A stretch of 64,000 bases of DNA, from assembly GCF_902809845.1 (NCBI RefSeq), contig NZ_CADDWI010000007.1, forward strand, positions 1-64,000, given 5' to 3'. Below the pieces are notes generated by a model. That model worked only from the letters and a program-made list of their open reading frames with translations, made no database searches and had not been told where the DNA came from. The translations under genes and the position numbers were made by a program. Shown one piece after another: positions 7,797 through 31,712 of the stretch (positions are counted from its first letter, which is position 1; each line of letters begins with the position of its first letter). This stretch comes from Chelativorans sp. Marseille-P2723 (GTDB lineage Bacteria; Pseudomonadota; Alphaproteobacteria; Rhizobiales; Rhizobiaceae).

Positions 7797-8570
7797 TCAG
7801 GAGTTTGGTCGGATAACACCAAAACCGCCGGATCCTGCGGGTCGTTTGGCAGGCGAAGCAGGTCTTTGGACGAATTTTCGCCGATAGGCAGCGGCGGCTT
7901 GGGTCCGGTTGGTAACCTGAAGCTTGGATAGCAGATTGTGAACATGCACTTTTACCGTGTGCACAGAAAGCGACATCCTGTGCGCGATGAGCTTGTTCTG
8001 GTAACCTTCTGCGATCAACTCCAGGATCTGGCTTTCGCGTGCCGTAAGGCAAGGTAGAGCCGGAATCTCGTTGTTGGCAGCCTTGGGCTCAAAAGAGGGA
8101 CTTCTCATCGTTGTCCCGGTACCCTGCCGGAGGCTTTGGGCGGGATAATATTCTCCGCCGCTCATAAGTAGAGAGAGGGCTGCAAGCCATACATCCAGCT
8201 TGAGCGCCCATGGTAGAATTCCCTGAACCTTTCCGGCAGCGAAAAGCATGTCGCATTGGTCGGCTTGCTCACTGTTCTCATCGAGAAGCAGAGCAATGGC
8301 CGTGTTAGGATAATGCGCGCGACAGGCGGCGGTCAGACCGCTCATCTCTTTGCTGCAATTTGCATCTATCAGGGCGAGTTGCGGATCATGATCAAGGTCG
8401 GGGAGAGCCCCGTCTGCCTCTGTCACATACACCTGGGATCCGCGCAGACGGTCCTGCATTGTACGTGCGAGGCATTGAAACAATGCTCCGGCATGGGCAA
8501 CAACGAAGACGATCCTCATCGTGTCAAAATCAAGCGACGCCGTACCGTACACTGCTTTGCTGCTTGTCAT
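7797..8570 (-). CDS. LuxR-family response-regulator-like transcription factor
   Basis: A 257-aa protein. The C-terminal LuxR helix-turn-helix is clear at about residues 172-235: LTARESQILELIAEGYQNK, then HRMSLSVHTVKVHVHNLLSKLQVTNRTQAA. The N-terminal ~140 residues resemble a receiver fold that has lost its phosphorylation site. There is LIDANCSKE but no typical Asp-Lys pattern, so it is likely an atypical receiver, as in CsgD/VpsT-type biofilm regulators. That comparison rests on architecture only. The start ATG at 8570 has GGAGAGG upstream. It diverges from the Asn-rich secreted-protein gene across a region with an inverted repeat, so it may activate the secretion locus and control itself. 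Confidence 0.85.
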   Translation of the reverse strand: MTSSKAVYGTASLDFDTMRIVFVVAHAGALFQCLARTMQDRLRGSQVYVTEADGALPDLDHDPQLALIDANCSKEMSGLTAACRAHYPNTAIALLLDENSEQADQCDMLFAAGKVQGILPWALKLDVWLAALSLLMSGGEYYPAQSLRQGTGTTMRSPSFEPKAANNEIPALPCLTARESQILELIAEGYQNKLIAHRMSLSVHTVKVHVHNLLSKLQVTNRTQAAAAYRRKFVQRPASPAKRPAGSGGFGVIRPNS

Positions 8571-8624
8571 GACGCCCTCTCCGGCACACCCTATCCTTAA
8601 CTGCTTATGGTTAACAGACGTAAA

Positions 8625-8642
8625 TGTTAGTAAAAGCTAACA
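8625..8642. promoter_or_regulatory. Inverted repeat TGTTAG-N6-CTAACA between luxR and the secretion genes
   Basis: A perfect 6-bp inverted repeat with a 6-base spacer lies 55 bases upstream of the LuxR gene. A related GGTTAAC sequence is nearby at 8609-8615. It is a plausible binding site for the LuxR or SARP regulator. Function is inferred from position only. Confidence 0.4.
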
Positions 8643-9047
8643 GGCGATGCGTGACTCGAACGTGACATATGAAGGTTAGCTCGATGAGCTGAGCTCGCGC
8701 TAGCCCTTTCATAGGCGAAAAGCGTTACTCGCCATCCAACGAATGTGCGCTGGCAAGTTCGAAACTGATACACCCGCCGGGAATAGGCCATCGAATGATG
8801 TAATAACGATTTAGCTCTTTGGATCGAAATAGATAAAAAGAGCGTCCAGCGTCCCCTTCATAGTCAATTTTACTTAAGCTTGATTGCTGTCTTACAAATC
8901 CACAAGCGATCAGTGATGGTTTTCGCGCGTGGCCAGAACCACTCGGGCTCTGGTCAGAACGCAAAGGTGGGACGAGCCGATAGCCCCGTTTGAAATGAAG
9001 AGGGGTGGGTCCTTCCGCCGCGAACTCTCCATTCAAGGAGCAGTAAG
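8643..9047. other. Upstream region of the secretion operon, no confident gene
   Basis: About 400 bases between the LuxR inverted repeat and the Asn-rich protein gene. A 103-codon minus-strand frame (8725-9036) has a hydrophobic and aromatic-rich middle but no ribosome-binding site or family match, so I do not call it. A strong AAGGAG at 9036-9041 belongs to the downstream gene. Confidence 0.4.
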
Positions 9048-10010
9048 ATGGCCATTAACAACAACTCCGTTAATGAAAGCCTGCTTGTCGGACTGGACAA
9101 CGTTGCCAGTACTAACAGCAATCAGAACAACGACAACAGCAATCAGGGTAACGATTATCGGGATCAGTCTACCAATCTGGGTCTTGGACTGACTGACTCT
9201 CTCAATGACAACTCGAACCAGGATAACGATTACTCGACCAATACCGATGTGGGGATCGGGATAGAGGATTCGTTGAACGATAATTCGGATAATTCCGACA
9301 ACTCGAACCAGGACAACGATTATTCCACTAATACCGAGGTCGAGATTGGAATAGAGGATTCATTGAACGACAGTTCGACCAACAATTCAAACAACGACAA
9401 TTCGAACCGGTCGCAGACTGACTCGAATAATGACAACTCCGACCGCTCGCAGACAAACTCGCATAACGACAATTCTGACAATTCTACCAACGCTTCGCAT
9501 AACGATGCGTCGACGACCGTCGACGTTGCTCTGGACGTGGCAATTGAGGATGCCTTCAACGACGAGTCGATCGCCAACTCATACAACGATAACAGCACGG
9601 ATGACAGCACGGCCTTCGGCAATATCAGCCTCAACTTCGAAAACATCTTCGATGGTGCGTTCGGTGATGGCAATGGAAATACGGCCTTTGCCGTAAGCCA
9701 GGTTGCCGACATCGTCGATCAGGATACGCTGTCCGGCTTTGCTCAGCACAACAATGGAACGTTTAATGCTCAGGCCTATGCCGATGATGCGAGCATCGGA
9801 GGAAGCTGGGACTATATCGGTTCGGACAACGGAAATGGTGACAATGGCGTGACCGACGTCACGACGATCGCCGATGCGCGCGCTTCAGCCAGTGGTACCG
9901 CGTTCAACATGGAAGTCGTGATGGGCGCCAATCTGCAGCAGAACGCGTTCTCTGCCAATGTAGTCGGTGGCGATATGGTCAGCGAGACCAACTCCGGCGA
10001 CAGCTTCTAG
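9048..10010 (+). CDS. Asn/Asp/Ser-rich low-complexity protein, probable type I secretion substrate
   Basis: A 320-aa very acidic protein, with an excellent AAGGAG 7 bases before ATG. Residues ~18-190 are almost entirely Asn, Asp, Ser, Thr and Gln. They include an internal repeat in which NSNQDNDYSTNT and IGIEDSLND each recur (about residues 57-80 and 90-110). Two short NDNSDRSQT-like units follow. The C-terminal ~130 residues are more ordered (FGNISLNFENIFDGAFGDGNGN, AFNMEVVMGANLQQNAF) and end NSGDSF. It has no N-terminal signal peptide and no RTX GGxGxD nonapeptides. It sits directly upstream of the PrtD/HlyD exporter genes, so export by that system through an uncleaved C-terminal signal is the natural inference. 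The repeats recall extracellular matrix or adhesin proteins. Confidence 0.75.
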   Translation: MAINNNSVNESLLVGLDNVASTNSNQNNDNSNQGNDYRDQSTNLGLGLTDSLNDNSNQDNDYSTNTDVGIGIEDSLNDNSDNSDNSNQDNDYSTNTEVEIGIEDSLNDSSTNNSNNDNSNRSQTDSNNDNSDRSQTNSHNDNSDNSTNASHNDASTTVDVALDVAIEDAFNDESIANSYNDNSTDDSTAFGNISLNFENIFDGAFGDGNGNTAFAVSQVADIVDQDTLSGFAQHNNGTFNAQAYADDASIGGSWDYIGSDNGNGDNGVTDVTTIADARASASGTAFNMEVVMGANLQQNAFSANVVGGDMVSETNSGDSF

Positions 10011-10030
10011 GCTTTTCTGATCTCAAGCCC

Positions 10031-10054
10031 GGCCTGCGCGGAAACGCGCAGGCC
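10031..10054 (+). terminator. Strong hairpin between the Asn-rich gene and the next secretion gene
   Basis: GGCCTGCGCG-GAAA-CGCGCAGGCC is a perfect 10-bp stem with a GNRA-type tetraloop, followed by only TTT. It starts 20 bases after the stop codon. It may be a partial terminator or mRNA stabiliser that makes the putative passenger more abundant than its exporter. Confidence 0.6.
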
Positions 10055-10106
10055 TTTGGCTCCCATTGAGGGCATTCCCGTTCTCGCTTGAAGTGGAGAT
10101 CAATCC

Positions 10107-12104
10107 GTGTTCATTCCAAATGACGGGAACACCGAGATCATTGCGCACTTCATCGGCTATTTTCAGATATGCATCGAAGAAGTCCGTTACCGGCCCGATT
10201 TCGACCCGTTTGCTAATATCGCCACGCAATCGCCTGAACCCGGAACACTGGATGCGCGCAGCTTTCAGTTTCGGGAATCATTTGAACTGAGCATCTCCTC
10301 GCCGAAATTGAGTTATGTTCCGTCTGGCTACACGATCGTTACAGGGCAGGTGGAGCATTCCGTTTCCTTCGACCAACTTTCGGTAAGCATCCCTCGCCAC
10401 GAACTGCCCGCCCGACCGTCCCAAACGCAGCCCGATAGCGGCCCAACCTTGATGCAGCAAGAGCTCATCATAATGCCCGAGCCGGGCTCGACTATTCTTA
10501 TTGCCTCCCAGTACAAATATCTGTCGGATGACGATGTGCTCGTGGTCGGAGACATCGATTTCATAGGCGAACTCCGTACCGAGGCCCACGCCGAGCTCGA
10601 AGCTCTTTCCCATCACGCACTCAGCGTCTCGTCGGGTCTAGCGGAACTGGCCGATCTGCGATCGGTCGCGCAGGTGGTCGAACTTGTCGATCAGGCGCCA
10701 TCCCTGGTGCAAAAGCTTTCTGCGGAAGACTTTCAAGGCTTCGACAAGTTCGAAGTAAAACTCGGTGACACACTCGACGGCTTCTACAGCAACGGCGTCA
10801 GTGTCGAAAAGCAAGTAACAATGGCGGACAGTTTGCCGCTCGTCCAAGATCTGCCTGATATGAAGGAGGCAGATCAAGGCGACTTTGCCTCGATTTTCAT
10901 CGACGCCGCCGAAGCACCGACCACGATGAGTATATCAAGCGGCGGAAACATCTCCTGGAACGATACGACCATCGTCAGCGCCGGACTGGCGCCTGCCGTA
11001 TTTTCAGTGGCTGGCGATTATCACCGCTTCGACGCGATATATCAGACCAATGTCCTGCGCGATATTGATACTGTTGACGACAACTGGCCCGCTCAGAATC
11101 TGACAATGGGCGGCAACACGCTGCAAAACAGCGCAGGCTTCGTCAATCAGGATTACGCCAGCTATAGCGGCACCGAGAGCCCGGCGAACGGCATGCCAGA
11201 AAATTGGAGCGTGACCAGCATCAATGGGGACATGATCTTTCTCGATTGGGTGCAGCAATACAATTTCACGCTCGATAACGACACCCAGATACTGACCGCG
11301 ATGGGGACAAACACCTTCATATCGACGGGGCTGAACATCGGGTTCAACGATCTCTCCTTCGCCAATCTGGGGCAGTACTTCGACCTCGTACTCATTGGCG
11401 GCTCACTCTATGACGGAAACTTCATCGTACAAACCAATGTGCTGCTCGACAGCGACAATCTTTCCGTTCTGGATAATTCGAGCGCCTATCTGGGTGACGC
11501 CGCGACTGGTGAAAACTTACTATGGAACCAGGCTACGATCCAAAACATCGGTACCACGAACTGGCAGCAGGGTTTGCCCGGCCATTATCAGAGCGCGCTG
11601 GATAATCTCGCCCAGGGCAACAAGGCGATGCCATCGGGCTTTACCAACGACAGCGTGCTGGACGGCCTCGGCAATCTTAAGGTTCTCTACATCTCCGGAA
11701 ACGTCTACGACATTCATTACATTGACCAGATCAATATTGTCGGCGACGCGGATGATCTTGCGATCTATGAGGCGAGCCTTCTGGAAGCCCAGGAAAGCGT
11801 CTGGAAAGTATCTACTGGCCACAACATGCTCGCCAACAAGGCAACGATCCTGGACTATGACAGCCTGGGCGAGGTCGCCTATGTTGGCGGCCAGATCTAT
11901 AGCGATGCCGTGCTCGTGCAGGCGGATTTACTGGAAGGTCTGGACGACCGAACGACCACCCGCGGCGATGAAATTGCCAATGAGGTTCTCGCCTTCCTGG
12001 ATGACCACACTGACCTGTCCCCGCGGCTGGAAAGCCATCCAGCGATCAAGAGCATGGCCGACTACGGCATAAGCTCGGACATGTTCCAATCAATGTTTGC
12101 TTAA
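10107..12104 (+). CDS. Large repeat protein of the type I secretion locus
   Basis: A 665-aa acidic protein. The GTG start at 10107 is preceded by GGAG at 8 bases. The N-terminal ~270 residues show no recognised domain. From about residue 270 there are roughly five degenerate units that open with GxN-(aliphatic)-x-N-x-(A/T)-x-(I/V), such as GGNISWNDTTIV, GGNTLQNSAGFV, GENLLWNQATI and GHNMLANKATI. They close with VxGxxYxxxxIxQxNxLxDxD segments such as YISGNVYDIHYIDQINIV. Proteins of this make-up are often annotated only as type I secretion protein in rhizobia. It has no signal peptide and no RTX motif. It precedes the ABC exporter by 11 bases, so it may be a second passenger or a surface partner of the Asn-rich protein. 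Confidence 0.75.
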   Translation: MFIPNDGNTEIIAHFIGYFQICIEEVRYRPDFDPFANIATQSPEPGTLDARSFQFRESFELSISSPKLSYVPSGYTIVTGQVEHSVSFDQLSVSIPRHELPARPSQTQPDSGPTLMQQELIIMPEPGSTILIASQYKYLSDDDVLVVGDIDFIGELRTEAHAELEALSHHALSVSSGLAELADLRSVAQVVELVDQAPSLVQKLSAEDFQGFDKFEVKLGDTLDGFYSNGVSVEKQVTMADSLPLVQDLPDMKEADQGDFASIFIDAAEAPTTMSISSGGNISWNDTTIVSAGLAPAVFSVAGDYHRFDAIYQTNVLRDIDTVDDNWPAQNLTMGGNTLQNSAGFVNQDYASYSGTESPANGMPENWSVTSINGDMIFLDWVQQYNFTLDNDTQILTAMGTNTFISTGLNIGFNDLSFANLGQYFDLVLIGGSLYDGNFIVQTNVLLDSDNLSVLDNSSAYLGDAATGENLLWNQATIQNIGTTNWQQGLPGHYQSALDNLAQGNKAMPSGFTNDSVLDGLGNLKVLYISGNVYDIHYIDQINIVGDADDLAIYEASLLEAQESVWKVSTGHNMLANKATILDYDSLGEVAYVGGQIYSDAVLVQADLLEGLDDRTTTRGDEIANEVLAFLDDHTDLSPRLESHPAIKSMADYGISSDMFQSMFA

Positions 12105-12115
12105 GGCGCAAGATC

Positions 12116-14359
12116 ATGTTGACGAAGGGTTCGCAAAACAAGCCGTTCGGCGAGCCTCCGCAGGCTGGCCGGCCGAACGAAGTACAAGGCGGTGCCGACA
12201 AATGCCTTGCCGATATCGATGCCGCTGTGCGCGACCTAAAAACCCTTGCAGCGTATGAAGGTTTAACGCCCAAGGGACTGGCCAATACCAACGGCCAGGC
12301 AAGCCCTGCCGGCGCGCGGGAAACGAGTGGCCGCTCCACAACGCCTTCAGCCCAATCTCGCGCGCGGTTGGAAAATTCTTTTCAGCCGCAGCCGATAACT
12401 GCCGAGCCACGCTCGCCGGTCGCCGAGCCGCAGGCGCGCGAAGAAAGCGCTCCACCCCGTTCGCGCACGGAGGTGAAGATCGGGCCTGTCATCGAGGGGG
12501 ATACCGGACTGCTTGCACCGCATAAGAAGGCGGACAGCAGCGGAGGCGGTTCTGGAGCCAAGAGCAGTCCGCCCAATGGCGGCGGGGGAGGGGGCGGCGC
12601 ACCCGTACCGGGGAGCTTTCCCAAGCGTGTGGAAATGCCCGATTTTGCGGTGGCATTCAAAAATGGCCTTGACGCCGTGCGCAAAAATATCGCGATCGTC
12701 ATGGTCTTCACGATAATGACCAACATTCTAGTGCTGGCGATACCGATTTATCTGTTCCAGATCGCGGATCGCGTGCTGACAAGCCGGTCGGTTGACACGC
12801 TGGTGATGCTCACGGTGGTCGTTGCGGCGGCGGTCATATTGCAAATGGCGTTCGATGCGATACGGCGTTTCATCCTGATGCGCACGGCGGTTGAAATAGG
12901 AGCGCAGCTTGGGGCGCCGGTGCTGGCCGCTGCCGCCCGCTCATCCCTAAACGGCTCAGCACGCGATTATCACGTGCTCGGCGATCTTCAGCAGATCCGC
13001 TCCTTCATCACGTCGGGCACACTCCTTTCAATTCTCGACGTACCGATCGCTCCGCTTTTCGTGCTTGTGGTGTTCCTGATTCATCCCCATCTCGGCTCGA
13101 TTGTCGTTGGCGCATCCTTGCTATTGATCTTCACGGCCTACGTGAACCAGCGTATGACGGCGCAACATTTCAGCGATGCAAACGGCTTTAACAGCCGCGC
13201 AACGCTGCATGTCGACTCCATGTCGCGCAATTCGCAAATCATCAATGCAATGGCCATGATACCCGAAGCGGTTCGTATGTGGGGCCGCGACACTGCATTG
13301 GCGCTGCGTTCCCAGGTGCGCGCTCAGGACCGCAACATCGTGATCAGCAGCGCATCCAAATCGCTGCGGCTCTTAACGCAGGTCGCAATGCTGGGGTGGG
13401 GCGCCTTTCTGGCGATTAAGGGCGAGATGACGGGCGGTATGGTGATTGCCGCTTCGATCATCGCCAGCCGTGCTTTGACGCCTATAGAGGGTGCCATTGA
13501 GGGCTGGAGTGGCTTTACGCAATATCTAGCTTCCTTCCAGCGCGTGCGCGCACTCTTGCAGACCTCGCCACTGAACTTCCAGCGGCTGCTTCTGCCTACG
13601 CCTCAAGGCAGGCTCGATGTCGACCGTATCCTTTACGTGCCGCCACCGACCAAAAAGGTCATCCTCAACGGTATTTCGTTCTCCCTGTTGCCAGGTGAAA
13701 CGCTCGCCGTGATCGGCAATTCGGGCTCCGGCAAGACCACGCTCGGCAAGATGCTTGTTGGATCGATCTTGCCTACTTCCGGTAATGTCCGGCTCGACCT
13801 GATGGATCTGCGCAATTGGGACCAGCGGCAGTTTGGCGAGAATATTGGCTACCTGCCTCAGGACGTGCAACTCTTTCCCGGATCCATAAAAGCAAACATC
13901 GCCCGCATGCGTGACGATGCCACCGACCAGCAGATATTCGATGCTGCCATTCTGGCCGACGTGCACGAACTGATCGCTTCTTTCCCGCAAGGCTACGAGA
14001 CCTTTGTGGCCGCTGATGGCGCGCCGCTTTCAGGCGGGCAGAAGCAGCGTATTGCGCTAGCCCGTGCGTTTTTCGGCAGTCCGCGGCTGGTGGTACTTGA
14101 TGAGCCGAACTCGAATCTCGATTCGCCTGGCGAAATAGCGCTCGCCAAGGCTTTGCTGCACGCACGCAAGCAAAAAATAACGGTTGTCACGATCACCCAG
14201 CGCACCGCGCTGCTCAACCACGTTGACAAGATTCTGGTGCTGAACAACGGATCGGTGGCGATGTTCGGCTCCCGCAACGAGATCCTCAAGACGCTGGCGA
14301 ATAAAAGCCGCAACACCGGCTTGGGCGGAATGATCGATAATTCGGGAACCGGGCCATGA
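12116..14359 (+). CDS. Type I secretion ABC permease/ATPase (PrtD-like)
   Basis: A 747-aa inner-membrane exporter. Residues 1-165 are an unusual low-complexity cytoplasmic extension rich in Pro, Gly, Ser and Glu that ends in a run of glycines. The transmembrane domain follows (KNIAIVMVFTIMTNILVLAIP onward). The nucleotide-binding domain has Walker A GNSGSGKTT, signature LSGGQKQRIALARAFF and Walker B with DEPNSNLD. That layout is the type I secretion permease/ATPase PrtD family. It exports unfolded proteins in one step with an HlyD adaptor and a TolC outer-membrane channel. No TolC gene is in the window. The start overlaps the end of the adaptor's neighbour by design: its stop and the HlyD start share ATGA. 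Confidence 0.92.
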   Translation: MLTKGSQNKPFGEPPQAGRPNEVQGGADKCLADIDAAVRDLKTLAAYEGLTPKGLANTNGQASPAGARETSGRSTTPSAQSRARLENSFQPQPITAEPRSPVAEPQAREESAPPRSRTEVKIGPVIEGDTGLLAPHKKADSSGGGSGAKSSPPNGGGGGGGAPVPGSFPKRVEMPDFAVAFKNGLDAVRKNIAIVMVFTIMTNILVLAIPIYLFQIADRVLTSRSVDTLVMLTVVVAAAVILQMAFDAIRRFILMRTAVEIGAQLGAPVLAAAARSSLNGSARDYHVLGDLQQIRSFITSGTLLSILDVPIAPLFVLVVFLIHPHLGSIVVGASLLLIFTAYVNQRMTAQHFSDANGFNSRATLHVDSMSRNSQIINAMAMIPEAVRMWGRDTALALRSQVRAQDRNIVISSASKSLRLLTQVAMLGWGAFLAIKGEMTGGMVIAASIIASRALTPIEGAIEGWSGFTQYLASFQRVRALLQTSPLNFQRLLLPTPQGRLDVDRILYVPPPTKKVILNGISFSLLPGETLAVIGNSGSGKTTLGKMLVGSILPTSGNVRLDLMDLRNWDQRQFGENIGYLPQDVQLFPGSIKANIARMRDDATDQQIFDAAILADVHELIASFPQGYETFVAADGAPLSGGQKQRIALARAFFGSPRLVVLDEPNSNLDSPGEIALAKALLHARKQKITVVTITQRTALLNHVDKILVLNNGSVAMFGSRNEILKTLANKSRNTGLGGMIDNSGTGP

Positions 14360-15699
14360 AAACCGATGTGACCGGGTATAATCCGCTGAACGAATGGTAT
14401 GCCAACGTTCCCCGCTCCATCCGAGCCCAAACCATAGGCGGACTGACCTTGATGTTCGTCGTATGTGGTGGTTTCGGCGCATGGGCCGGCCTTGCGCCAC
14501 TGGCATCAGCGGTCATCGCGCCTGGCAGCTTTGTTGCCACGGGCAAGAACAAGATTGTGCAGCATCTGGAAGGCGGCCTGATACGGGAAATCCTCGTGCA
14601 GGAGGGCGATCATGTGAAAGAGGGCCAGGACTTGATCCAGCTCGACAAGACCGCAGCTCTCGCCAACGCGCGCCAGCTCCATTTACGCACGCTGAGACTG
14701 GAGGCAACTCTGGTCCGGCTGCAAGCGGAATCGCGTGGAGAAAGCGAATTCATGGCGCCGGCATCGATCGCGGGTAAGCTCGACGACGCGGAGATCGCCG
14801 CGATCATGGACAGCCAGAAGAAAATTTTCGATTCAACGCGCCTTAAGATCGAGAACCAGCTTGGTTTGCTGCGCGAGAACATTTCCGCGCTCAACCATCA
14901 GCTTGATGGCATAGAAGGCCATGCCGACTCCTTGCGCCGGCAGCGCGCGATCCTGCAAAGTGAGTTGGACGTCAAGACCGAGCTGCTGGAAAGGAGCATT
15001 GTCACCCGCTCGACCGTCAACATGCTGGAGCGTGCAGTGGCGGACGCCGATGGCGCTATCATTCGCCTTGAAGCGGAAGCTCGCATGGTCATGACGCAGA
15101 TAGCGAAATACAAGATGGAGATGATCCAGGTCGTAGATACTGCAAAGAATGTGGCCTTTGATGAAATTCAGAAGGTTGAGGCCGAACTGGATGCTGCGCG
15201 TGAGCAAGGGCGCAACGCCAGAAGCGTGCTAGGCCGCACGGCAATCCAGGCTCCCGTGTCTGGCATTGTCGTTCGCAGCTACTATCACACCGGCGGCGGC
15301 GTTATCGAAAGCGGACGTCCGATCATGGAGATCCTTCCATCCGGCGAGCCTCTCATTATCGAGGCGCAGGTACCGCGCATGCAGATCGACGAGGTTCGTC
15401 TTGGCCAGTCGGCCTCTATCCGGCTGAGCGCTTTGAACCAGCGCACGACGCCCATCCTTGAAGGTGAGGTAATCTATGTTTCTGCCGATGCCGTGACTGC
15501 ATCGGCGTCTTCGCCGTCAAAGGAAATCTATATCGTGCGTGTCGAGATTCCCGGCGAGGAACTGCATCGTGTGAAGGGTTTCAATCCCACCCCCGGTATG
15601 CCGGCCGAGATCCTGATCCAAACCCGCGAGCGCACATTCTTCCAATATATCGCCAAACCGATTAGCGACAGCATGGCCCGCGCGTTTCGAGAATACTGA
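14356..15699 (+). CDS. HlyD-family type I secretion periplasmic adaptor
   Basis: A 447-aa membrane-fusion protein. It has one N-terminal transmembrane segment (TIGGLTLMFVVCGGFGAWAGLAPL), a lipoyl/barrel-sandwich part (VQHLEGGLIREILVQEGDHVKEGQ), a long coiled-coil hairpin around residues 95-290 and the second lipoyl half GRTAIQAPVSGIVVRS. The C-terminal beta domain ends FQYIAKPISDSMARAFREY, the typical HlyD/PrtE end. The start ATG overlaps the exporter stop as ATGA, which indicates translational coupling. It bridges the PrtD-like ABC protein to an outer-membrane TolC channel encoded elsewhere. Confidence 0.93.
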   Translation: MKTDVTGYNPLNEWYANVPRSIRAQTIGGLTLMFVVCGGFGAWAGLAPLASAVIAPGSFVATGKNKIVQHLEGGLIREILVQEGDHVKEGQDLIQLDKTAALANARQLHLRTLRLEATLVRLQAESRGESEFMAPASIAGKLDDAEIAAIMDSQKKIFDSTRLKIENQLGLLRENISALNHQLDGIEGHADSLRRQRAILQSELDVKTELLERSIVTRSTVNMLERAVADADGAIIRLEAEARMVMTQIAKYKMEMIQVVDTAKNVAFDEIQKVEAELDAAREQGRNARSVLGRTAIQAPVSGIVVRSYYHTGGGVIESGRPIMEILPSGEPLIIEAQVPRMQIDEVRLGQSASIRLSALNQRTTPILEGEVIYVSADAVTASASSPSKEIYIVRVEIPGEELHRVKGFNPTPGMPAEILIQTRERTFFQYIAKPISDSMARAFREY

Positions 15700-24611: not shown

Positions 24612-25571
24612 TCATCTATGCATATATTGTATCAGCCGGAATGCTTTGCGGCGCGCCCATGATCCACGGTGCCGTGGATCTGCCGCCTGTATTGCACATT
24701 CCGGAGAAATCAAGCGGCAGCCGATCGACGCCAGGATGCCGCGGCGCAACCGGTTTGCCAATATAGTGGCGTGCCGATCTTCAAAAAGTCTGCTTGCAAG
24801 CGAGAGGCTGACGGCGGCTTCCATGCCGAACCGCAGCTTCCTTGCTATACGAACGAAAGTATCGATCCTGTCGTCGGGGAGCCGACGCGCGGCCTGCACC
24901 ACATCGACAACCATCTGGAGACGGTGGAACTTGTGGCCGCATGAAGCATGAACGATTGCAACGCAAAGCAGCGCTTCAGGCGCCTCCGGGTCGCCCTGAC
25001 CGGCGGCCAGAAGTTCCTCATAGCCGAAACTGACGCGCCGGCGCAGCCGAGGATAGTGGACAAGGTCGGTGTGGAGTTCGAACAGGACCGACCGATTCTG
25101 CGCCAGCGTCCACTTGAACTCCATGTTGCGCTGCGAATTGTCCCAGATCTCATTGCGCTCGGGCTGAAAACCCCGCTCGCGCATAACATCACTTGCCCGC
25201 TCAAGGTCCGCGGGATGGACGAGCAGATCGATATCGGTAAAGGGACGGTCGGCGGGATTGTCGTAGAGAAGGCGCGAGAAGGTCGGGCCCTTGACGATAG
25301 CGAAGCGGATTTCCGCCTTTCGCAGTTCAGCCGAAACCAATTCGGCCTTTCGCTGCAGCAGCAATGCCTGACCTATCCGCAATGCGGTATCGGGGTCCGC
25401 CTCGGCGGCACATAGCCCCATCTTGCGCTCGACAATAGGCAACACGCCATGGTGGTTTGCAAGGGCGGCGAGTTTCTCCGCCGTCGCACCTTCCGGCCGT
25501 GAGCCTTGCTGAGCCTGCCACATTGGATCTGCAAACCGGGGCAGGAATGAAGCCACGTCCTCCGTAACCAT
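24612..25571 (-). CDS. Nucleotidyltransferase-family protein of the RiPP cluster
   Basis: A 319-aa protein of the uncharacterised nucleotidyltransferase family (NTP_transf_5 type). The catalytic region reads FAIVKGPTFSRLLY followed by RPFTDIDLLVHPADLE (about residues 114-145), where DID supplies the metal-binding acidic residues. A helical C-terminal half follows (FGYEELLAAGQ, HRLQMVVDVVQAARRL). Members are frequent companions of lasso-type RiPP clusters with unknown chemistry. A product nucleotidylation or sugar-type transfer has been suggested for some. The start codon overlaps the stop of the carrier-protein gene (TGATG). It is the last gene of the ligase, GNAT, carrier protein, nucleotidyltransferase unit. 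Confidence 0.85.
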   Translation of the reverse strand: MVTEDVASFLPRFADPMWQAQQGSRPEGATAEKLAALANHHGVLPIVERKMGLCAAEADPDTALRIGQALLLQRKAELVSAELRKAEIRFAIVKGPTFSRLLYDNPADRPFTDIDLLVHPADLERASDVMRERGFQPERNEIWDNSQRNMEFKWTLAQNRSVLFELHTDLVHYPRLRRRVSFGYEELLAAGQGDPEAPEALLCVAIVHASCGHKFHRLQMVVDVVQAARRLPDDRIDTFVRIARKLRFGMEAAVSLSLASRLFEDRHATILANRLRRGILASIGCRLISPECAIQAADPRHRGSWARRKAFRLIQYMHR

Positions 25572-25822
25572 CAGCTTTCATCTTCCCGATGCGCGGCACC
25601 GAACAGGGCAGCGAGGCTGCCTACGGTTTCGAAGGATGCTATTTCCTCCGCTGTCATCATCCGCCCCAGCCTTTCCTCCGCAGCTGCGATAATGGAGACA
25701 TGGGCAATGCTGTCCCATTGGGGGAGCGAACCGACTTTGGCCTCACACGGAACGTCTTCTATGGGGCAACCAAGTGCCTCCGCCACAATTTCGCGCGCGA
25801 TTAAACTTTCCGCATAGGTCAT
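25571..25822 (-). CDS. Acyl/peptidyl carrier protein
   Basis: An 83-aa PP-binding carrier protein starting MTYAESLIARE at 25822. The attachment serine is S38 in QWDSIAHVSII, a clear phosphopantetheine site (DS-x-x-H/Q). The helical pattern and length are those of a free-standing ACP. The start ATG overlaps the GNAT stop as ATGA, and the stop overlaps the nucleotidyltransferase start. The carrier protein therefore sits between an acyltransferase-like GNAT and downstream of an adenylate-forming ligase, so loading of an acyl or aminoacyl group onto S38 and transfer by the GNAT is the simplest model. The loaded group is unknown. Confidence 0.88.
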   Translation of the reverse strand: MTYAESLIAREIVAEALGCPIEDVPCEAKVGSLPQWDSIAHVSIIAAAEERLGRMMTAEEIASFETVGSLAALFGAAHREDES

Positions 25823-26382
25823 GATTCCTCCCAGGTCCGTCGCTCCCATTCATCGCGAAAAAGCTCGAAAATCAGGAAATCATGGACTTCACCGCTCACC
25901 GGGTCCTGCTTCGCCCGATGCAATGTACCGACATGGCTAAAACCCAGCTTCCGGTTATTGAAGATCGACGGGAAGTTGCGGGAGCGGACATAGGTGCAGA
26001 GCCGATCGACCGGCGTATTCTCAAAAATATGCGCGATTATGCCCTTGCGCACCTCCTGCACGACATTCTTGCCCCACCAGTGCCGATCGGAAATCGCGAT
26101 TGCCAGATAAGCGGATCTATATGGCCTCATTTCTATAAAGTGGAGCCCTATGGGGTCTTCCTGACCATGTGGCATGATTGCATGGGCAAACTTGGTGCGG
26201 TTGTTGGGCCGTACCATCTCGCGATACCATTTCCACGGCGAACGCCGTGCCGCTGAACCCGTATAACTGCGGATGAGCTCGACATCCTTTGTCCACGCAT
26301 AGCTAAGACAAAAGGCACGCCAGCGGCTGATCGGCTCCAGCCGAAAGCGCTCAGTAACAATAATGTTTTGCAGCTTCTTCAT
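25819..26382 (-). CDS. GNAT-family N-acyltransferase
   Basis: A 187-aa GNAT of the RimJ/RimL-like type. It has IVTERFRLEPISRW at the N-terminus, HWWGKNVVQEVRKGIIAHIF in the acyl-CoA/pantetheine-binding helix region and the C-terminal block VRSRNFPSIFNNRKLGFSHVGTL, with the Asn that usually positions the acyl donor. It overlaps the ligase stop (ATGA) and the carrier-protein start, so the three are translationally coupled. The carrier protein may replace CoA as donor. GNAT enzymes that acylate RiPP side chains with fatty acids are known (selidamide type), but an ordinary acetyl-CoA-dependent activity cannot be excluded. Confidence 0.85.
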   Translation of the reverse strand: MKKLQNIIVTERFRLEPISRWRAFCLSYAWTKDVELIRSYTGSAARRSPWKWYREMVRPNNRTKFAHAIMPHGQEDPIGLHFIEMRPYRSAYLAIAISDRHWWGKNVVQEVRKGIIAHIFENTPVDRLCTYVRSRNFPSIFNNRKLGFSHVGTLHRAKQDPVSGEVHDFLIFELFRDEWERRTWEES

Positions 26383-27803
26383 GCCCGCTGGCGTGCCTTG
26401 TGCTGCCGCAACGCCTCTTCACGAACGTGATCACGCACGATTTTCCCACGATCATTGCGCGGGATGGCATCGAGCGGGAAAATACGCGTTGGAACTGCCT
26501 CTGGCCGGCATCGCTCTCGGCACCAGGCCTTTATGGCTTCGACCTCGCCTCCCTTGCGCAGTACAACGGCAGCAGCAACAGCTTCGCCGGCCACCGGATC
26601 AGCAAGCGGAAAGGCACAGGCCTCCTCGACATGCGGATGGCGTTCAAGCAGCAGGTCGATTTCCTCAGCAGGAATCTTGATGCCGCCGCGATTGATCTCA
26701 TGCTTGATCCGTCCCACCAGCGTCAGGCCGCCATCTTCCGCGATCATGCCGATGTCTCCGGTCCGGAACCACGGGCCGATGAAGGCTGCAGCCGTTGCGT
26801 CTTCCATTCCGAGATAGCAGGTCATGATGGAAGGCGAAGCGACCAGCACCTCGCCGAAGCCCTTGTTCCGGATGTTCCCTTCACCGTCGAGTACCGCCCA
26901 TGTGCCGCCCCATGGCTTGCCGACGAAGCCATCTGTCGGCTCCCGATCTTCCAGGCTTGCTCCGGCAATCCAGTTCGCCGTCTCAGTCATGCCATACATA
27001 TTGAGGACGCGTCGCGTACCTATCCATCCGGCGATTGAACTCCAGGCTTCCGCCGATAGCGGCGCAGAGCCCACATGCACGCGTCTCATCTTCCATTCCG
27101 GCCTTGGCGAAAGCCGCATCGCCACCTTCCAGAAGGATGGCGTTGAACTCATGAAGGTGATTTGCTCGCGGTCAACCAATGGGCCGAAGCCTTGCATCTC
27201 TTCGATGCCTGGCTGTGGCCATAGGTAGAGTGTTCCACCCGCCGCCAGAACGGTGAGGACGTTGCCAATCAACCCGTGGCCGAAATGGAGGGGCAGCACA
27301 CATAACGACCGCTCAAGGTCGGCGCTTCCGATGGCTGCAACGTTTAGCGCTATGCGTGAACTGAGGCTGCGCTGCGTGTGAACGATGCCCTTGGGATGCC
27401 CGGTTGTGCCGGATGTCATTAATGTCAAAGCCGGCGCTTCAATGTGCAGGGGGCCAGTAAAGACGCTCCGTACCGTAGAACGATGTATCTCCTCGCCATC
27501 CAGGAGAGCCATGGCGCCGGTGGTTGTCATCACGTTTGCCCGTTCCTCGGCCGTAATGGCGGGGTTGACGACCAGCGCCATGGCCCCCACCGTCCACAAG
27601 GCGAAGATGTCGCGGAGACAGGCGAGGGGATTACGATGAGCAACGGCCGCGCAGCCGCCCACCACGCCAGCCTTGGCCAAAGCTTTAGCCCGCGTTTCGA
27701 TCTGCCGCCACAACTCTTGCTTATCGATCGTTGCGCCGCTTCGAATATCGACAAGTCTTGCTTTCCGATGCAAATGCGCAAAGAGAACGGGCGGAACACT
27801 CAT
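26379..27803 (-). CDS. Class I adenylate-forming (acyl/aryl) ligase of the RiPP cluster
   Basis: A 474-aa complete AMP-forming ligase. Core motifs are the P-loop TLMTSGTTGHPKGIVHTQ (about residue 128), then MYGMTETANWI, WFRTGDIGMIAEDG, GRIKHEINRGGIKI and the catalytic lysine region PRNDRGKIVRDHV near the end. This order shows both the large AMP-binding domain and the small C-terminal lid. It activates a carboxylic acid as an adenylate and passes it to CoA or a carrier protein. The carrier-protein gene two positions downstream is the likely acceptor. Its promoter region faces that of the RiPP precursor on the other strand. Substrate class (fatty, aromatic or amino acid) is not clear from the sequence. 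Confidence 0.9.
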   Translation of the reverse strand: MSVPPVLFAHLHRKARLVDIRSGATIDKQELWRQIETRAKALAKAGVVGGCAAVAHRNPLACLRDIFALWTVGAMALVVNPAITAEERANVMTTTGAMALLDGEEIHRSTVRSVFTGPLHIEAPALTLMTSGTTGHPKGIVHTQRSLSSRIALNVAAIGSADLERSLCVLPLHFGHGLIGNVLTVLAAGGTLYLWPQPGIEEMQGFGPLVDREQITFMSSTPSFWKVAMRLSPRPEWKMRRVHVGSAPLSAEAWSSIAGWIGTRRVLNMYGMTETANWIAGASLEDREPTDGFVGKPWGGTWAVLDGEGNIRNKGFGEVLVASPSIMTCYLGMEDATAAAFIGPWFRTGDIGMIAEDGGLTLVGRIKHEINRGGIKIPAEEIDLLLERHPHVEEACAFPLADPVAGEAVAAAVVLRKGGEVEAIKAWCRERCRPEAVPTRIFPLDAIPRNDRGKIVRDHVREEALRQHKARQRA

Positions 27804-27860
27804 GAAAACTATCTCACGCCGTTATTGCCTTTAACTCGCGATATTATAAACTGTGAGGCA

Positions 27861-27890
27861 TTGACGGCTGTCAGCTAAGACCTCTAGTAT
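27861..27890 (+). promoter_or_regulatory. Candidate promoter of the RiPP precursor gene
   Basis: TTGACG (27861-27866), an 18-base spacer and TAGTAT (27885-27890) lie 38 bases before the precursor ATG, in the divergent region shared with the ligase gene. Confidence 0.5.
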
Positions 27891-27928
27891 TAATGTGCTT
27901 ATGCTACTTATCCTTGGGAGGATCTGCA

Positions 27929-28036
27929 ATGAAGAAAAGGTACGAAAAACCGGTATTGAATAGGCGGGAGAAACTGTCAGAGGTTACAGCGCAGGTGGGT
28001 GTGTCAGTACCTAATGGCGACAAGAACGCAATCTGA
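27929..28036 (+). CDS. RiPP precursor peptide with lasso-type leader (35 aa)
   Basis: This small gene has GGGAGG 7 bases before the ATG. The leader has the features of lasso-type leaders that are bound by PqqD-like proteins: Y5-x-x-P8-x-L10 (KKRYEKPVL) and a conserved Thr at residue 20 in EKLSEVTA. If the usual rule holds, with Thr at -2, cleavage falls after A21. The core would then be QVGVSVPNGDKNAI (14 aa). Its only acid is D31, position 10 of that core, outside the 7-9 range needed for a lasso ring. Starting at G24 would place D31 at position 8. The core has one Lys (K32) and one Ser (S26) as modification sites. It is on the opposite strand to the processing genes, between the ligase and kinase genes. 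Confidence 0.8.
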   Translation: MKKRYEKPVLNRREKLSEVTAQVGVSVPNGDKNAI

Positions 28037-28057
28037 CCAACGATAGTGAATCCTCTT

Positions 28058-28083
28058 GACAGATTTAGAGAAATTTATCTGTC
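28058..28083. terminator. Hairpin between the convergent precursor and kinase genes
   Basis: GACAGAT-N12-ATCTGTC lies 21 bases after the precursor stop, with A/T-rich loop sequence. It may act as a bidirectional terminator, although neither side has a long U-tract. Confidence 0.4.
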
Positions 28084-28096
28084 GTCATCATGCTAT

Positions 28097-28141
28097 CTCA
28101 CCTCACCTCCATTTCATTGATAAGAACATTGGTGAGGTGAG
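28097..28141. repeat. 11-bp inverted repeat at the 3' end of the kinase gene
   Basis: CTCACCTCACC (28097-28107) and GGTGAGGTGAG (28131-28141) are perfect complements spaced by 23 bases, and they include the last codons and the stop of the kinase gene. They could form a stem that, with the 28058 hairpin, insulates the two convergent transcripts. Confidence 0.5.
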
Positions 28142-29096
28142 TAATTCGATGCGGAAGATCCAGTTCGAAGGCCGACGCCTTGTCAACGGCTTTCGCCAAC
28201 ATTGCATAGCGCCGCGATTGCAGTGGAGTAAGGCCGGTATTCGCACGGCGAATGTTGTCGGCAGCCAGCGCCGCCAGCATTTCGGCTCTTGGTATCGGTC
28301 GAAGCCGTCCTCTCCCTGATCCTGAACGGTTCAGCAGGAAGATATCCGTAACGCGAAGGTTGCGACGGTCAAAGGAAACCACCCCTTCGAGCCTTGCTCG
28401 CGGTATGGCCTGTTCGCCATTATCGTTCCAGCTTCCCATGACGGCAGCAAGGAACGGCAGCATCTCCGCCGTTTTCCGGTGCACCTTCATCGCCCGCGGC
28501 AGCCCCCACGCACGGATATCGTCGTCCTCTATTCGCAGCACCATCGCGTCATCAGCCGCGAGCGGAAAGCCGGCCTCGGCGAGCGCAAGTGCGGTTGTGG
28601 TCTTGCCAGTCCCGCTCGGTGCACACAGCAGCAAGGCCCTGTCACTGTCGGGCAGCGATACTCCGGCGCAATGAACAACTTGCTGGCCGTCTGAATCGAG
28701 CGCGAATTCAAGAGCCAACGCGATCATGTTGCCGCGGGTATGAACCAGCCTGCCTTCTGCAATGATCAATTCAGCAGTTCTTGCATCCGGAAAGATATTC
28801 AACGTCGCCGCGCCGGGAAAGTTAAGCACATAAGCATCCCTTATGCGGCCGAATATGCAGCTCCCCTCATCAAGAAGCGGCCCCTGATAAAGAACTTCCA
28901 TCTCATCTTCTGGAGGCGGGGGAATGCCGACGGTGATGTCGAGTCGGAACGTGGCTGCGCGTGGCAATGCCAGGCGCCGCTCACCTATAAGATAATCCAG
29001 GCCTTCGAGAAATCGGTCATTGTCGGCATGCGCTTCAAGCACTGTCGCCTCAAGGTCATAGAACGCCTGCACGCATCCTGCCTTCCCTATCGGCAT
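28098..29096 (-). CDS. HPr-kinase-like peptide kinase of the RiPP cluster
   Basis: A 332-aa protein starting MPIGKAGCVQ at 29096. It overlaps the B2 gene by 10 bases, and the longer frame to 29237 lies within B2. The C-terminal half carries an HPrK-type P-loop CAPSGTGKTTTALALAEAG (about residues 158-176), followed by LAADDAMVLRIED with the paired Asp expected for the catalytic and metal site. HPrK homologues in lasso clusters (paeninodin type) phosphorylate the C-terminal serine of the precursor. Here the precursor ends in Ile and its only core-region Ser is S26, so either S26 or another group is the target, or the role differs. It belongs to the PqqD, B2, kinase unit. Confidence 0.87.
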   Translation of the reverse strand: MPIGKAGCVQAFYDLEATVLEAHADNDRFLEGLDYLIGERRLALPRAATFRLDITVGIPPPPEDEMEVLYQGPLLDEGSCIFGRIRDAYVLNFPGAATLNIFPDARTAELIIAEGRLVHTRGNMIALALEFALDSDGQQVVHCAGVSLPDSDRALLLCAPSGTGKTTTALALAEAGFPLAADDAMVLRIEDDDIRAWGLPRAMKVHRKTAEMLPFLAAVMGSWNDNGEQAIPRARLEGVVSFDRRNLRVTDIFLLNRSGSGRGRLRPIPRAEMLAALAADNIRRANTGLTPLQSRRYAMLAKAVDKASAFELDLPHRITHLTNVLINEMEVR

Positions 29097-29515
29097 GGCA
29101 CGTCCTTTTCCGGATAGATAAGAATGGGCAGCATCGGTGTTGCCGAGGCGCCCAGCACCGTCTTGCCGTCGACCTCGACCCAGCAATGGGCGGCAAGCCT
29201 GTCTGCAGAAACAGAGGCAGGGTCGATCCCGAAGCAAAGTCTCGGCTCATATCCCGCCTCCCGAAGGAAGCGGTATCCCAAAAGGCCTACGCGCAGACAA
29301 CGCCGGTCGCGCATAAGCCATGGACGCCTCACTGCGCGCGCAATTTTGCTGACCACATAGGAAAGCGGAAGGCCGGGATAGGACGGCGCTCCCGAGAATG
29401 TTGCCAGCTTCAACACCTGATCCAAAGAATCGCGCGGAACCTGCCAGGGCAGGAGACGGGCGCGGAGCCACAGGTCCAGGTTAAACAGCAGCCTTGTGAT
29501 TATTGGAGCAGCCAT
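29087..29515 (-). CDS. Lasso-type B2 leader peptidase (transglutaminase-like cysteine protease)
   Basis: A 142-aa protein with the B2 signature. Cys73 lies in DRRCLRVGLLGYRFLREAG and His110 in DRLAAHCWVEVDGK, with Asp or Glu of the following strand completing a Cys-His-Asp triad. These are the catalytic groups by which McjB-type enzymes remove the leader. The length equals that of stand-alone B2 proteins that act with a separate B1. It lies 23 bases after the PqqD-like gene and overlaps the kinase gene. It would cleave the leader after the conserved Thr region of the precursor. Confidence 0.9.
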   Translation of the reverse strand: MAAPIITRLLFNLDLWLRARLLPWQVPRDSLDQVLKLATFSGAPSYPGLPLSYVVSKIARAVRRPWLMRDRRCLRVGLLGYRFLREAGYEPRLCFGIDPASVSADRLAAHCWVEVDGKTVLGASATPMLPILIYPEKDVPCR

Positions 29516-29538
29516 GGCCAGATAGCGACGCTACTTCA

Positions 29539-29838
29539 TCACTTCGTCAGTTCCTCACTGGCAAGCCGGATAATACCCTCCTCGACAAGTTCCCCCGCAA
29601 TCTCGATCAGGTCCCCAGTCACGGTACCCGAATCGACGTCGAATTCCTCGCAAAGCAGCGCGGCAATCTCTTCCAGTGTGCGGTTGCCGTCGACATGACG
29701 GAGAAATGCTTCAAACGTCGCGTTACAGGTGAACAATTGCCCGTCATCAAAGCGCAGGATTACTGCGCCATCACCCACGGGCTGGTAGTTGACGGACGGA
29801 TTCATAAGAAAGACGGAACGCTCCCCCACTGACCGCAT
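29539..29838 (-). CDS. PqqD-like RiPP leader recognition protein (B1)
   Basis: A 99-aa PqqD/RRE-fold protein. The N-terminal strands are NYQPVGDGAVILRFDDGQLFTCNA, then helical segments FEAFLRHVDGNRTLEEIAALLCEEFDV and a C-terminal helix LIEIAGELVEEGIIRL, the canonical PqqD topology. The ATG at 29838 has GGGAGGAG just upstream. An internal start at 29805 gives the classical core. Its role is to grip the YxxPxL leader and present the peptide to the B2 protease and perhaps to the other enzymes. It is first in the unit with B2 and the kinase. Confidence 0.9.
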   Translation of the reverse strand: MRSVGERSVFLMNPSVNYQPVGDGAVILRFDDGQLFTCNATFEAFLRHVDGNRTLEEIAALLCEEFDVDSGTVTGDLIEIAGELVEEGIIRLASEELTK

Positions 29839-30407: not shown

Positions 30408-30880
30408 GGAGCTGGGCAATCTCGCAACCGTTGCAGGAGTAATTCCTATTATAGACGGTGATTTTCCAGTAAATGCTTGAAAATACTGGAAGTTTGACCT
30501 GAAATTATATATAATCCTCCTATGAAATCTCCCCGGCCCGTTGAGGCGGATTACCCGGGAGGAACGATTGCAGATGGAACAGGAAACCTTACTCGCGACA
30601 TTGATGGAGGGCTCCTCTCTGCCCGATATGTGGTGGGTCGAAGGAGCGTATCCGGACCTGACGTGGCACTACCGAGTGAAGCATTGGACGAAATCGCAAA
30701 GGCGCGAACTGGCGAGGCAATTCGTTCAGTTGCGCCGCGATCTCCGGAAATTGGACGTGACGTGGGTAGGGCAGTATTCAGACGCGGTGGCAGCCCTGAT
30801 TATATCGCTGTCTCCAACGCTCTCAAGCCGGAGCAATCTGCACGTGTAGCAGCACATGAGATCGGACATGTTATAGACAA
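30408..30880 (+). repeat. Copy A of a tandem duplication (see 31255-31712)
   Basis: The segment from GCAACCGTTGC to GTTATAGAC recurs 834 bases downstream (offset measured at GCCCGATATG, 30621, and GCCCGA, 31455). The central ~230 bases are nearly identical and the flanks are diverged. It covers the first part of the metallopeptidase-fragment gene. Confidence 0.8.
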
Positions 30881-31223
30881 GACAGTCGATGAAATACCGA
30901 TAAGCGGTATCAACGATGAGCTCCGCACGATCTATAACGATCTAAACAACCCACAGAGCTATGGTAAAAAGTTCGGGCCGGAGCAGCATAGGTACAAGGG
31001 CGATAATATCCAGCGCGAGTTGATGGCGGAAGCCATTCGCGCCTACATGACTGACCCAAACTATCTTAAGACCGTGGCGCCAAAGACGGCTGCCCGCATC
31101 CGCAAATACGTCAATAATCATCCACGGTTGAAAGACATCATTCAATTCAACAGCCTTGTTGGCGCGGATGGCATAGGCCTTCATGAGCTACGAGTCATTG
31201 GCCAGGAGGCGAGTAGCTTATGA
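30522..31223 (+). CDS. Zinc-metallopeptidase-like fragment of a large polyvalent protein
   Basis: A 233-aa frame with two recognisable blocks: SARYVVGRRSVSGPDVALP near residue 33, and a zinc-protease-like helix RVAAHEIGHVIDKT (HEIGH, about residues 106-119). A downstream Glu in RELMAEAIRAYM is a plausible third ligand. The tail PNYLKTVAPKTAARIRKYV is also seen in the terminal part of giant phage or plasmid polyvalent proteins. The start at 30522 lacks a ribosome-binding site and the N-terminus is low in conservation. This is probably the C-terminal remnant of a much larger gene. It may not be expressed. Confidence 0.55.
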   Translation: MKSPRPVEADYPGGTIADGTGNLTRDIDGGLLSARYVVGRRSVSGPDVALPSEALDEIAKARTGEAIRSVAPRSPEIGRDVGRAVFRRGGSPDYIAVSNALKPEQSARVAAHEIGHVIDKTVDEIPISGINDELRTIYNDLNNPQSYGKKFGPEQHRYKGDNIQRELMAEAIRAYMTDPNYLKTVAPKTAARIRKYVNNHPRLKDIIQFNSLVGADGIGLHELRVIGQEASSL

Positions 31224-31254: not shown

Positions 31255-31712
31255 CGGCCTTGCAACCGTTGCGGGCGTAATTCCTATAGCGGTTGATTTT
31301 CCGGTAAGGCTTGAAAAAGCAGGTTTCTGGCTGCGCAAACATCTATAATTTTCCGGTGAAACCGCCGCGTCGTTTCCATGCGCATTATCCCACTGGAGTG
31401 TTGGCGAATGCAAAAGGAAGGCTCACACACGACATACACGGAAGACCGCTCTCTGCCCGATATGTGGTGGGTCGAAGGAGCGTATCCGGACCTGACGTGG
31501 CACTACCGAGTGAAGCATTGGACGAAATCGCAAAGGGCGAACTGGCGAGGCAATTCGTTCAGTTGCGCCGCGATCTCCTGAGATCGGAAGTGACGTGGGT
31601 AGGGCAGTATTCAGACGCGGTGGCAGCCCTGATTATGTCACTGTCTCCAACGCTCTCAAGCCGGAGCAATCTGCACCTGTAGGGCCCATGAGATCGGGCA
31701 TGTTATAGACAG
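31255..31712 (+). pseudogene. Frameshifted second copy (copy B) of the polyvalent-protein fragment
   Basis: The copy reads LSARYVVGRRSVSGPDVALP and EALDEIAK as in copy A, then loses one base in the G/C run after GCAAAG near 31538. The rest is out of frame, and the HEIGH-equivalent region reads into stops. Downstream of 31712 the similarity ends after ATGTTATAGACA. The duplicated flanks (GCAACCGTTGC and TGATTTTCC near 31300) show the unit was copied with its upstream sequence. Confidence 0.75.

Follow-up and report, generated by a model that had tools for sequence, protein, structure and literature searches.

A RiPP gene cluster of Chelativorans sp. Marseille-P2723 with lasso-type leader-processing genes, an HprK-like kinase, a carrier-protein acyl module and no detected lasso cyclase

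We analysed a window of 64,000 nucleotides (positions 1 to 64,000 of contig NZ_CADDWI010000007.1, forward strand) from the 3.77 Mb, 99.8% complete genome of Chelativorans sp. Marseille-P2723, which holds at 24612-29838 a gene cluster for a ribosomally synthesized and post-translationally modified peptide (RiPP). On balance, the cluster probably encodes an alphaproteobacterial pathway to a linear phospho-RiPP, similar to that of the Linear Polyphosphorylated Peptides (LPP) and with an added carrier-protein acylation module. Behind this reading stand the gene content, the lack of a detectable lasso cyclase, conserved catalytic residues, a leader constrained as protein, a Ser/Thr that recurs in the core and the recurrence of the gene set in other genomes; every chemical step, the order of the steps, the acyl group, its acceptor and the biological role of the product are what we infer from them. 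The first-pass annotation of this DNA had proposed that lasso-type enzymes read and remove the leader of a product that is not a lasso. Our results support this proposal, as the sole full-length asparagine-synthetase homologue found in the genome is an osmolyte enzyme (see below), and the link between the core Ser/Thr and the kinase is an addition to it.

Peptide genes and the search for a lasso cyclase

The cluster consists of two minus-strand gene strings, PqqD-B2-kinase and ligase-GNAT-carrier-NTP_transf_5, and the precursor gene, the only one on the plus strand, sits between them. Start and stop codons overlap within the second string, so the single overlapping operon of the first-pass annotation holds from ligase to NTP_transf_5 and not for the cluster as a whole; the genes lie where that annotation had placed them and the seven enzymes match the families it had named, the kinase through a profile of its relatives. 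A promoter and terminator scan gave 3 and 2 sites, compared to 1.6 and 2.1 in shuffled sequences. By eye, we also noted an inverted repeat without a T run (GACAGAT...ATCTGTC, 28058-28083) between the convergent ends of the precursor and kinase genes.

The precursor gene (27929-28036, plus strand), with a likely ribosome-binding site (GGGAGGA) at 27916-27922, encodes a peptide of 35 aa, MKKRYEKPVLNRREKLSEVTAQVGVSVPNGDKNAI, in which YEKPVL fits the YxxPxL motif and which carries VTA. Assuming cleavage by the penultimate-Thr rule, the leader is MKKRYEKPVLNRREKLSEVTA and the core QVGVSVPNGDKNAI. The peptide had no family match in the profile searches of the window proteins and was identified by reading the sequence and by its relatives: comparable peptides are encoded between kinase and ligase on the opposite strand in Roseovarius (locus L006, one copy) and at loci L038 (nine copies) and L079 (one copy), and the leader codons of the window and L006 differ 3, 4 and 10 times at codon positions 1, 2 and 3. 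These same-place peptides and the codon pattern indicate that the window precursor is more than a chance reading frame, and the leader peptide with YxxPxL and Thr recognised in the first pass thus stands.

Altogether, 42 precursors were assembled from 14 of the 22 kinase loci compared (see below). Differences per codon position were 0.363, 0.343 and 0.642 in the leader (35 leaders of equal length) and 0.650, 0.669 and 0.712 in the first eight core codons, from which it follows that the leader is constrained as protein whereas the core is not. Within this variable core, position 4-5 is Ser or Thr in 36 of the 42 precursors (shuffle mean 15.5; none of 10000 shuffles as high) and, when only the first precursor per locus is counted, in 12 of 14 (mean 4.6; none of 10000); in the window it is Ser5. 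No lasso ring is possible in half of the cores (21/42), since these lack any Asp or Glu, and the window core has P7, N8 and G9 where a lasso peptide has Asp or Glu at 7-9. The penultimate leader Thr (EVTA in the window) was found in 30 of the 42 precursors by hand count. Core types vary by locus, being rich in Gly, Ser and Pro at L038 and L039 and short and hydrophobic (VTLIWVP-like) at L048 and L050. The latter two loci (10487-11424, minus strand, and 7836-9074, plus strand) each have five arrayed precursors whose cores are very short, in clusters that lack the ligase, GNAT and carrier genes (hereafter the trio).

The leader-processing genes are of lasso type. The PqqD-like RiPP recognition element (RRE; 29539-29805, minus strand) matched PF05402 with 46.4 bits (cut-off 23.4); an earlier ATG extends its open reading frame (ORF) to 29838, and comparison with L006 makes 29805 the likely start. 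Its pairing with a [Y/W]xxPx[L/V/I/A/F/Y] leader is that of lasso peptides. The transglutaminase-like B2 leader peptidase (29087-29515, minus strand) is the only PF13471 match of the genome (49.0 bits, cut-off 26) and exceeded the cut-off of NF033537, lasso_biosyn_B2 (59.2 versus 33). Its Cys73 and His110, singled out in the first-pass annotation, were invariant in 16 aligned B2 proteins (of 20 in hand).

All cluster enzymes exceeded curated Pfam cut-offs except the kinase (28098-29096, minus strand), which fell below those for HPr kinase (PF07475, 17.5 versus 33.3 bits) and for HprK_rel_A (TIGR04352, 28.9 versus 200) and is not a member of the latter family. A profile of this protein and 16 relatives matched the solved HprK 1jb1 (E 2e-5), which by sequence makes it a remote HprK relative. 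Its P-loop/DD residues, including His142, Lys165, Asp182 and Asp183, were invariant in 17 aligned sequences (of 21 in hand). On our own reading, these would fit the His-Lys-Asp-Asp that site-directed mutation showed to be imperative in lasso-tailoring kinases (PMC9266682).

No lasso cyclase was found near the cluster or in the source genome by PF00733 search, in agreement with the first-pass finding of none across 24.6-29.8 kb. That search returned three short matches in other frames and one full-length protein, the TIGR03104 N-acetylglutaminylglutamine amidotransferase (988 bits versus 570), whose gene adjoins TIGR03103 and TIGR03106 of the same N-acetylglutaminylglutamine amide (NAGGN) osmolyte system and which scored 226 bits against the lasso cyclase model (cut-off 525). 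Four genomes of the same genus without a kinase match hold copies 75-77% identical to it. The check for a stray cyclase outside the window, which the first pass had proposed, therefore turned up nothing tied to the cluster.

The PF00733 search was extended to 19 relatives and genome G716. Three genomes with the trio (G131, G164 and G213; 95, 99 and 100% complete) had no full-length asparagine synthetase, their matches staying below 33 bits and covering 65-120 of 354 positions, and the source TIGR03104 protein as query found nothing of length in them. The osmolyte enzyme has a 74% copy in G151 and a 71% copy in G264; in the genome of L038, a 74% copy is the sole strong asparagine synthetase. 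Where another of the relatives gave a strong match, it lay on a different contig (draft genomes) or no closer than 9 kb; the shortest distance among the 19, about 9 kb from PqqD, was in G217, at a locus without the trio.

In Roseovarius, where the locus was examined, an asparagine synthetase and a MurF-like ligase, divergently read, lie about 1.5 kb upstream of PqqD. The synthetase reached 197 bits against the lasso cyclase model (cut-off 525). A search of 297 family genomes found the MurF-like ligase in 18 (E <= 1e-40), several of which do not have the cluster. Of the nine family genomes with the trio, seven lack such a match, and in the other two (G085, G279) the ligase is on a contig other than that of the cluster. 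Because the MurF-like ligase does not follow the cluster, we regard the pair as a neighbour, and the Roseovarius synthetase was rejected as the missing cyclase on its score and this independent partner. The pair (L006, 5924-9121) may mark a separate system; in G235, G279, G177 and G085, too, such a ligase has an asparagine synthetase about 7-9 kb away.

The acyl module and its distribution

The adenylate-forming acyl ligase (26379-27803, minus strand; PF00501/PF13193) matched AMP-binding with 152.9 bits (cut-off 29.9) as well as the C-terminal domain, and its AMP-binding core and C-terminal lysine were kept in 11 aligned sequences. By sequence, the closest solved protein is oxalate-CoA ligase, a likeness that leaves open which acid it uses. 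RimL and RimJ acylate protein alpha-amines, and both appear, at lower rank, among the Foldseek matches to the model (predicted local distance difference test, pLDDT, 90.3) of the GNAT N-acyltransferase (25819-26382, minus strand; PF13302, Acetyltransf_3, 37.5 versus 25.4 bits). Rv0802c, PA3270 and SpeG ranked higher in this Rim/SpeG-like fold group, and the lasso-peptide acetyltransferase 9iy3 was also matched. The acyl carrier protein (25571-25822, minus strand; PF00550, PP-binding, 26.7 versus 20.8 bits), likely to start at 25822 by comparison with L006, has a WDS phosphopantetheine site that was invariant in 11 aligned sequences (of 12). The last gene of the string encodes an NTP_transf_5 protein (24612-25571, minus strand; PF14907, 104.4 versus 31.2 bits) with invariant KG, Arg109, Asp113 and Asp115.

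The kinase was searched for in the 297 family genomes, with counts that are lower bounds. At least 37 had a match at E <= 0.001, and at least 20 of these, our own included, exceeded 98 bits; the 19 relatives above 98 bits were compared and 17 weaker matches were left out. PqqD lay near the kinase in all 19, B2 in 18, NTP_transf_5 by similarity in 18 (not L040) and the trio in nine. Together with the window, L079 from another family of the order and Roseovarius L006, the one relative found when a genome-contig collection was scanned with the kinase, these nine bring the trio and the RiPP set together at 12 loci, 11 of which have all seven enzyme genes. Eleven of the 12 have no neighbouring cyclase, so the comparison suggested in the first pass yielded the gene set without one at ten further loci (L052 without B2 in the locus), plus the Roseovarius locus with its adjoining asparagine synthetase. 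In a plasmid collection, neither the DNA of the whole cluster nor the kinase or GNAT protein had a match. Choosing genes greedily by length produced spurious long ORFs at GC-rich loci, and no conclusion here draws on it.

The trio is absent from 10 of the 22 kinase loci, and where present it stands next to the kinase/RRE set in different gene orders. On the kinase tree (22 rows) the trio label changes four times, at least three of which are forced by well-supported branches, compared to 7.5 changes in shuffles; the trio has thus been gained or lost repeatedly. At L052 (5546-7202) the single trio has two tandem GNAT genes. Beside or near sets of PqqD, B2 and kinase that lack the trio, a Formyl_trans_N protein is encoded at L040 (10700-11854), L049 (10974-11921) and L056 (6472-7401). 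This formyltransferase is possibly another N-terminal cap; as a regular alternative to the trio it was rejected, being present at only three of the ten trio-less loci.

The GNAT-profile search covered 385 genomes of the class, again with lower-bound counts, and at least 12 genomes matched at E <= 1e-15, our own included. Ten of the 11 foreign genomes contributed a total of 11 loci to the comparison; G420, with a partial match, was left out. Ligase, GNAT and carrier occurred together at ten of them (L080-L084 and L086-L090, in other alphaproteobacterial families), while of the three only the GNAT is present at L085, and no PqqD, B2 or kinase was found by similarity at any of the 11. The trio is thus an autonomous unit, which seems to have been recruited by the peptide pathway. 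In a phylum sample, two of 398 genomes matched, namely our own and G716.

Proposed pathway and its alternatives

In the proposed pathway, the PqqD-like RRE would bind the YxxPxL leader and present it to B2, which would cut at the Thr of VTA or one residue later. The HprK-like kinase would put at least one phosphate on the core Ser/Thr at 4-5 (Ser5 in the window), and NTP_transf_5 would then decorate this phosphate with a sugar or nucleotide. The ligase would charge an acid onto the carrier and the GNAT would pass the acyl group on to the peptide, where the likeliest acceptor is the alpha-amine exposed by B2; no ring would be closed. Raising the family to a new alphaproteobacterial class of acylated linear phosphopeptides, defined by a lasso-type RRE and B2, a (poly)phosphorylated Ser/Thr, NTP_transf_5 decoration and carrier-dependent N-acylation, is a more tentative proposal, possible rather than probable.

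Several results weigh against the pathway. No precursor was found at eight of the 22 loci (L040, L041, L043, L044, L045, L051, L053 and L054) even by a looser search, and three of these have the trio. The core Ser/Thr at 4-5 is absent at the trio loci L052 and L055 and present in two of four precursors at L042 and in three of four each at L039 and L047. An acid at core 7-9 occurs in 9 of the 42 cores (seven of nine at L038, one at L039 and one at L047). The L052 locus lacks B2, which in that genome is on another contig. The AlphaFold model of NTP_transf_5 (pLDDT 90.6) had no confident structural match (best E 0.054), resembling LnuA, ANT(2'') and FKRP weakly (E 0.05-0.3), and its profile matched only designed pentatricopeptide repeat and alpha-solenoid proteins in the PDB; deletion of the LPP NTP transferase changed nothing detectable (PMC13381572). 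A PF00664 search of the 11 trio genomes other than Roseovarius found no ABC exporter within about 7 kb. Finally, since the trio occurs without RiPP genes at ten loci, its acceptor need not be the peptide.

This last point leads to the first alternative, that the acyl module acts on a phosphate-linked sugar or other group, or on a separate small molecule, rather than on the peptide N-terminus. It draws further on the overlap of the NTP_transf_5 and carrier genes in one string and on PsmN, a nucleotidyltransferase homologue tied to a hexose on phospho-Ser in pseudomycoidin, for which nucleotidylation was left open (PMC9266682). We consider it rather unlikely, as no glycosyltransferase or sugar-biosynthesis gene is among the assigned genes of 24.6-29.8 kb and the fold neighbours of the GNAT include RimL and RimJ. 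A trio that replaces the lasso cyclase, the ligase activating a peptide carboxylate and the GNAT closing a lactam, would explain why 11 of 12 trio loci have no neighbouring cyclase. It is improbable nonetheless: the 21 cores without a side-chain carboxylate would leave only the C-terminus to be activated, some RiPP loci lack the trio and some trio loci lack RiPP genes, and the solved protein closest to the ligase by sequence is an oxalate-CoA ligase.

A lasso cluster that has decayed or been split, its cyclase either gone or working from another place, we regard as highly unlikely. The lasso-type B2 and RRE, the acids at 7-9 in the L038 cores and the asparagine synthetases about 1.5 kb upstream of PqqD in L006 and about 9 kb from PqqD in the trio-less G217 speak for it, but our genome's own homologue is the NAGGN amidotransferase, no full-length asparagine synthetase was found in G131, G164 and G213, the L006 enzyme scored 197 versus 525 bits beside a partner not linked to the cluster, and the window reading frames are open with their motif residues kept. 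That the trio only happens to lie beside the peptide genes and has nothing to do with the peptide, as its autonomy elsewhere and its absence from 10 of 22 kinase loci could suggest, is scarcely probable: it adjoins the kinase/RRE set at 12 loci whose gene orders vary, its label on the kinase tree has at least three forced changes, and in the window it shares an overlapping string with NTP_transf_5.

A linear, phosphorylated and acylated product would have several consequences. Enzymes that recognise and remove leaders in the lasso manner could then also serve a product unable to be a lasso, and linear phospho-RiPPs would occur outside Bacillota; RiPP and carrier-protein chemistry would be joined in one small cluster. 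Genome mining that requires a cyclase would miss such clusters, and mining by RRE and B2 would label them lasso peptides. Through the recurrent Ser/Thr, the kinase step lends itself to a direct test. If the more tentative new class is real, a ribosomal peptide would undergo carrier-protein-dependent acylation by a module swapped in and out of its pathway, with a formyltransferase gene beside or near the set at three of the ten loci without this module.

Outside the cluster, the window holds a type I secretion locus (9048-15699) with an Asn/Asp/Ser-rich protein of 320 aa, a protein of 665 aa, a PrtD-type type I secretion ATPase (12116-14359; about 10 kb off, the PF00664 match nearest to the cluster) and an HlyD adaptor. 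A stretch, LSARYVVGRRSVSGPDVALPSEALDEIAK, that nearly repeats between a 233-aa ORF with HEIGH (30522-31223) and a shorter ORF (31311-31682) looks like the mark of a duplicated, partly broken gene.

Comparison with known systems

A search of the open-access literature returned one close match, the LPP paper (PMC13381572), and nothing on Rhodobacteraceae lasso or RiPP precursors. LPP, made by the lpp cluster of Paenibacillus alginolyticus and published in May 2026, share with the window cluster a discrete RRE, a YxxP leader, an HprK-like kinase and a nucleoside triphosphate (NTP) transferase without a macrolactam cyclase, a likeness that in the window is one of family names and residues. LPP phosphates sit on core Ser3, which parallels the Ser/Thr near the core N-terminus of the window family, whose numbering may shift by one because the LPP cut is placed after Thr. 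The two differ in that LPP use an archaeal-type signal peptidase (SpI), in place of which the assigned genes of 24.6-29.8 kb have B2, and an MsbA-like exporter, which the window cluster lacks. The LPP leader is YxxPxVLxHQxIxFETxxS, in precursors of 35-200 aa, and the window leader departs from it after YxxPxL. LPP are also described as restricted to Bacillota, and the text available mentions no ligase-carrier-GNAT module (PMC13381572).

Phosphorylated lasso peptides (paeninodin, SyanA and pseudomycoidin) share B2-type leader removal, an HprK-type kinase with His-Lys-Asp-Asp and PsmN, but have a lasso fold and an asparagine-synthetase-like cyclase, which the window cluster lacks, and bear the phosphate on a C-terminal Ser (PMC9266682). 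Albusnodin-type peptides likewise have an acetyltransferase in a lasso-type cluster, although they are lassos with a cyclase and the acetyl group is on Lys (PMC9266682). In selidamides, which include the alphaproteobacterial phaeornamide, a GNAT also acylates a RiPP; they differ in having a proteusin precursor with a lanthionine ring and an acyl group from primary metabolism, and the available gene list shows no dedicated ligase or carrier (PMC9505594). The window has a lasso-type precursor of 35 aa instead, and no LanM, arginase or hydroxylase among its assigned genes.

The new RiPP class of the first-pass annotation therefore stands in part: a cyclase-free combination of RRE, HprK-like kinase and NTP transferase had already been published as LPP (PMC13381572), while the B2 protease and the acylation module are new. 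Lacking SpI, the MsbA-like exporter and the restriction to Bacillota on the one side and the lasso cyclase on the other, the family is filed under neither LPP nor lasso peptides; by comparison of the genes, we would describe it as LPP-like in its working, except that the protease is of lasso type and an acyl module has been added.

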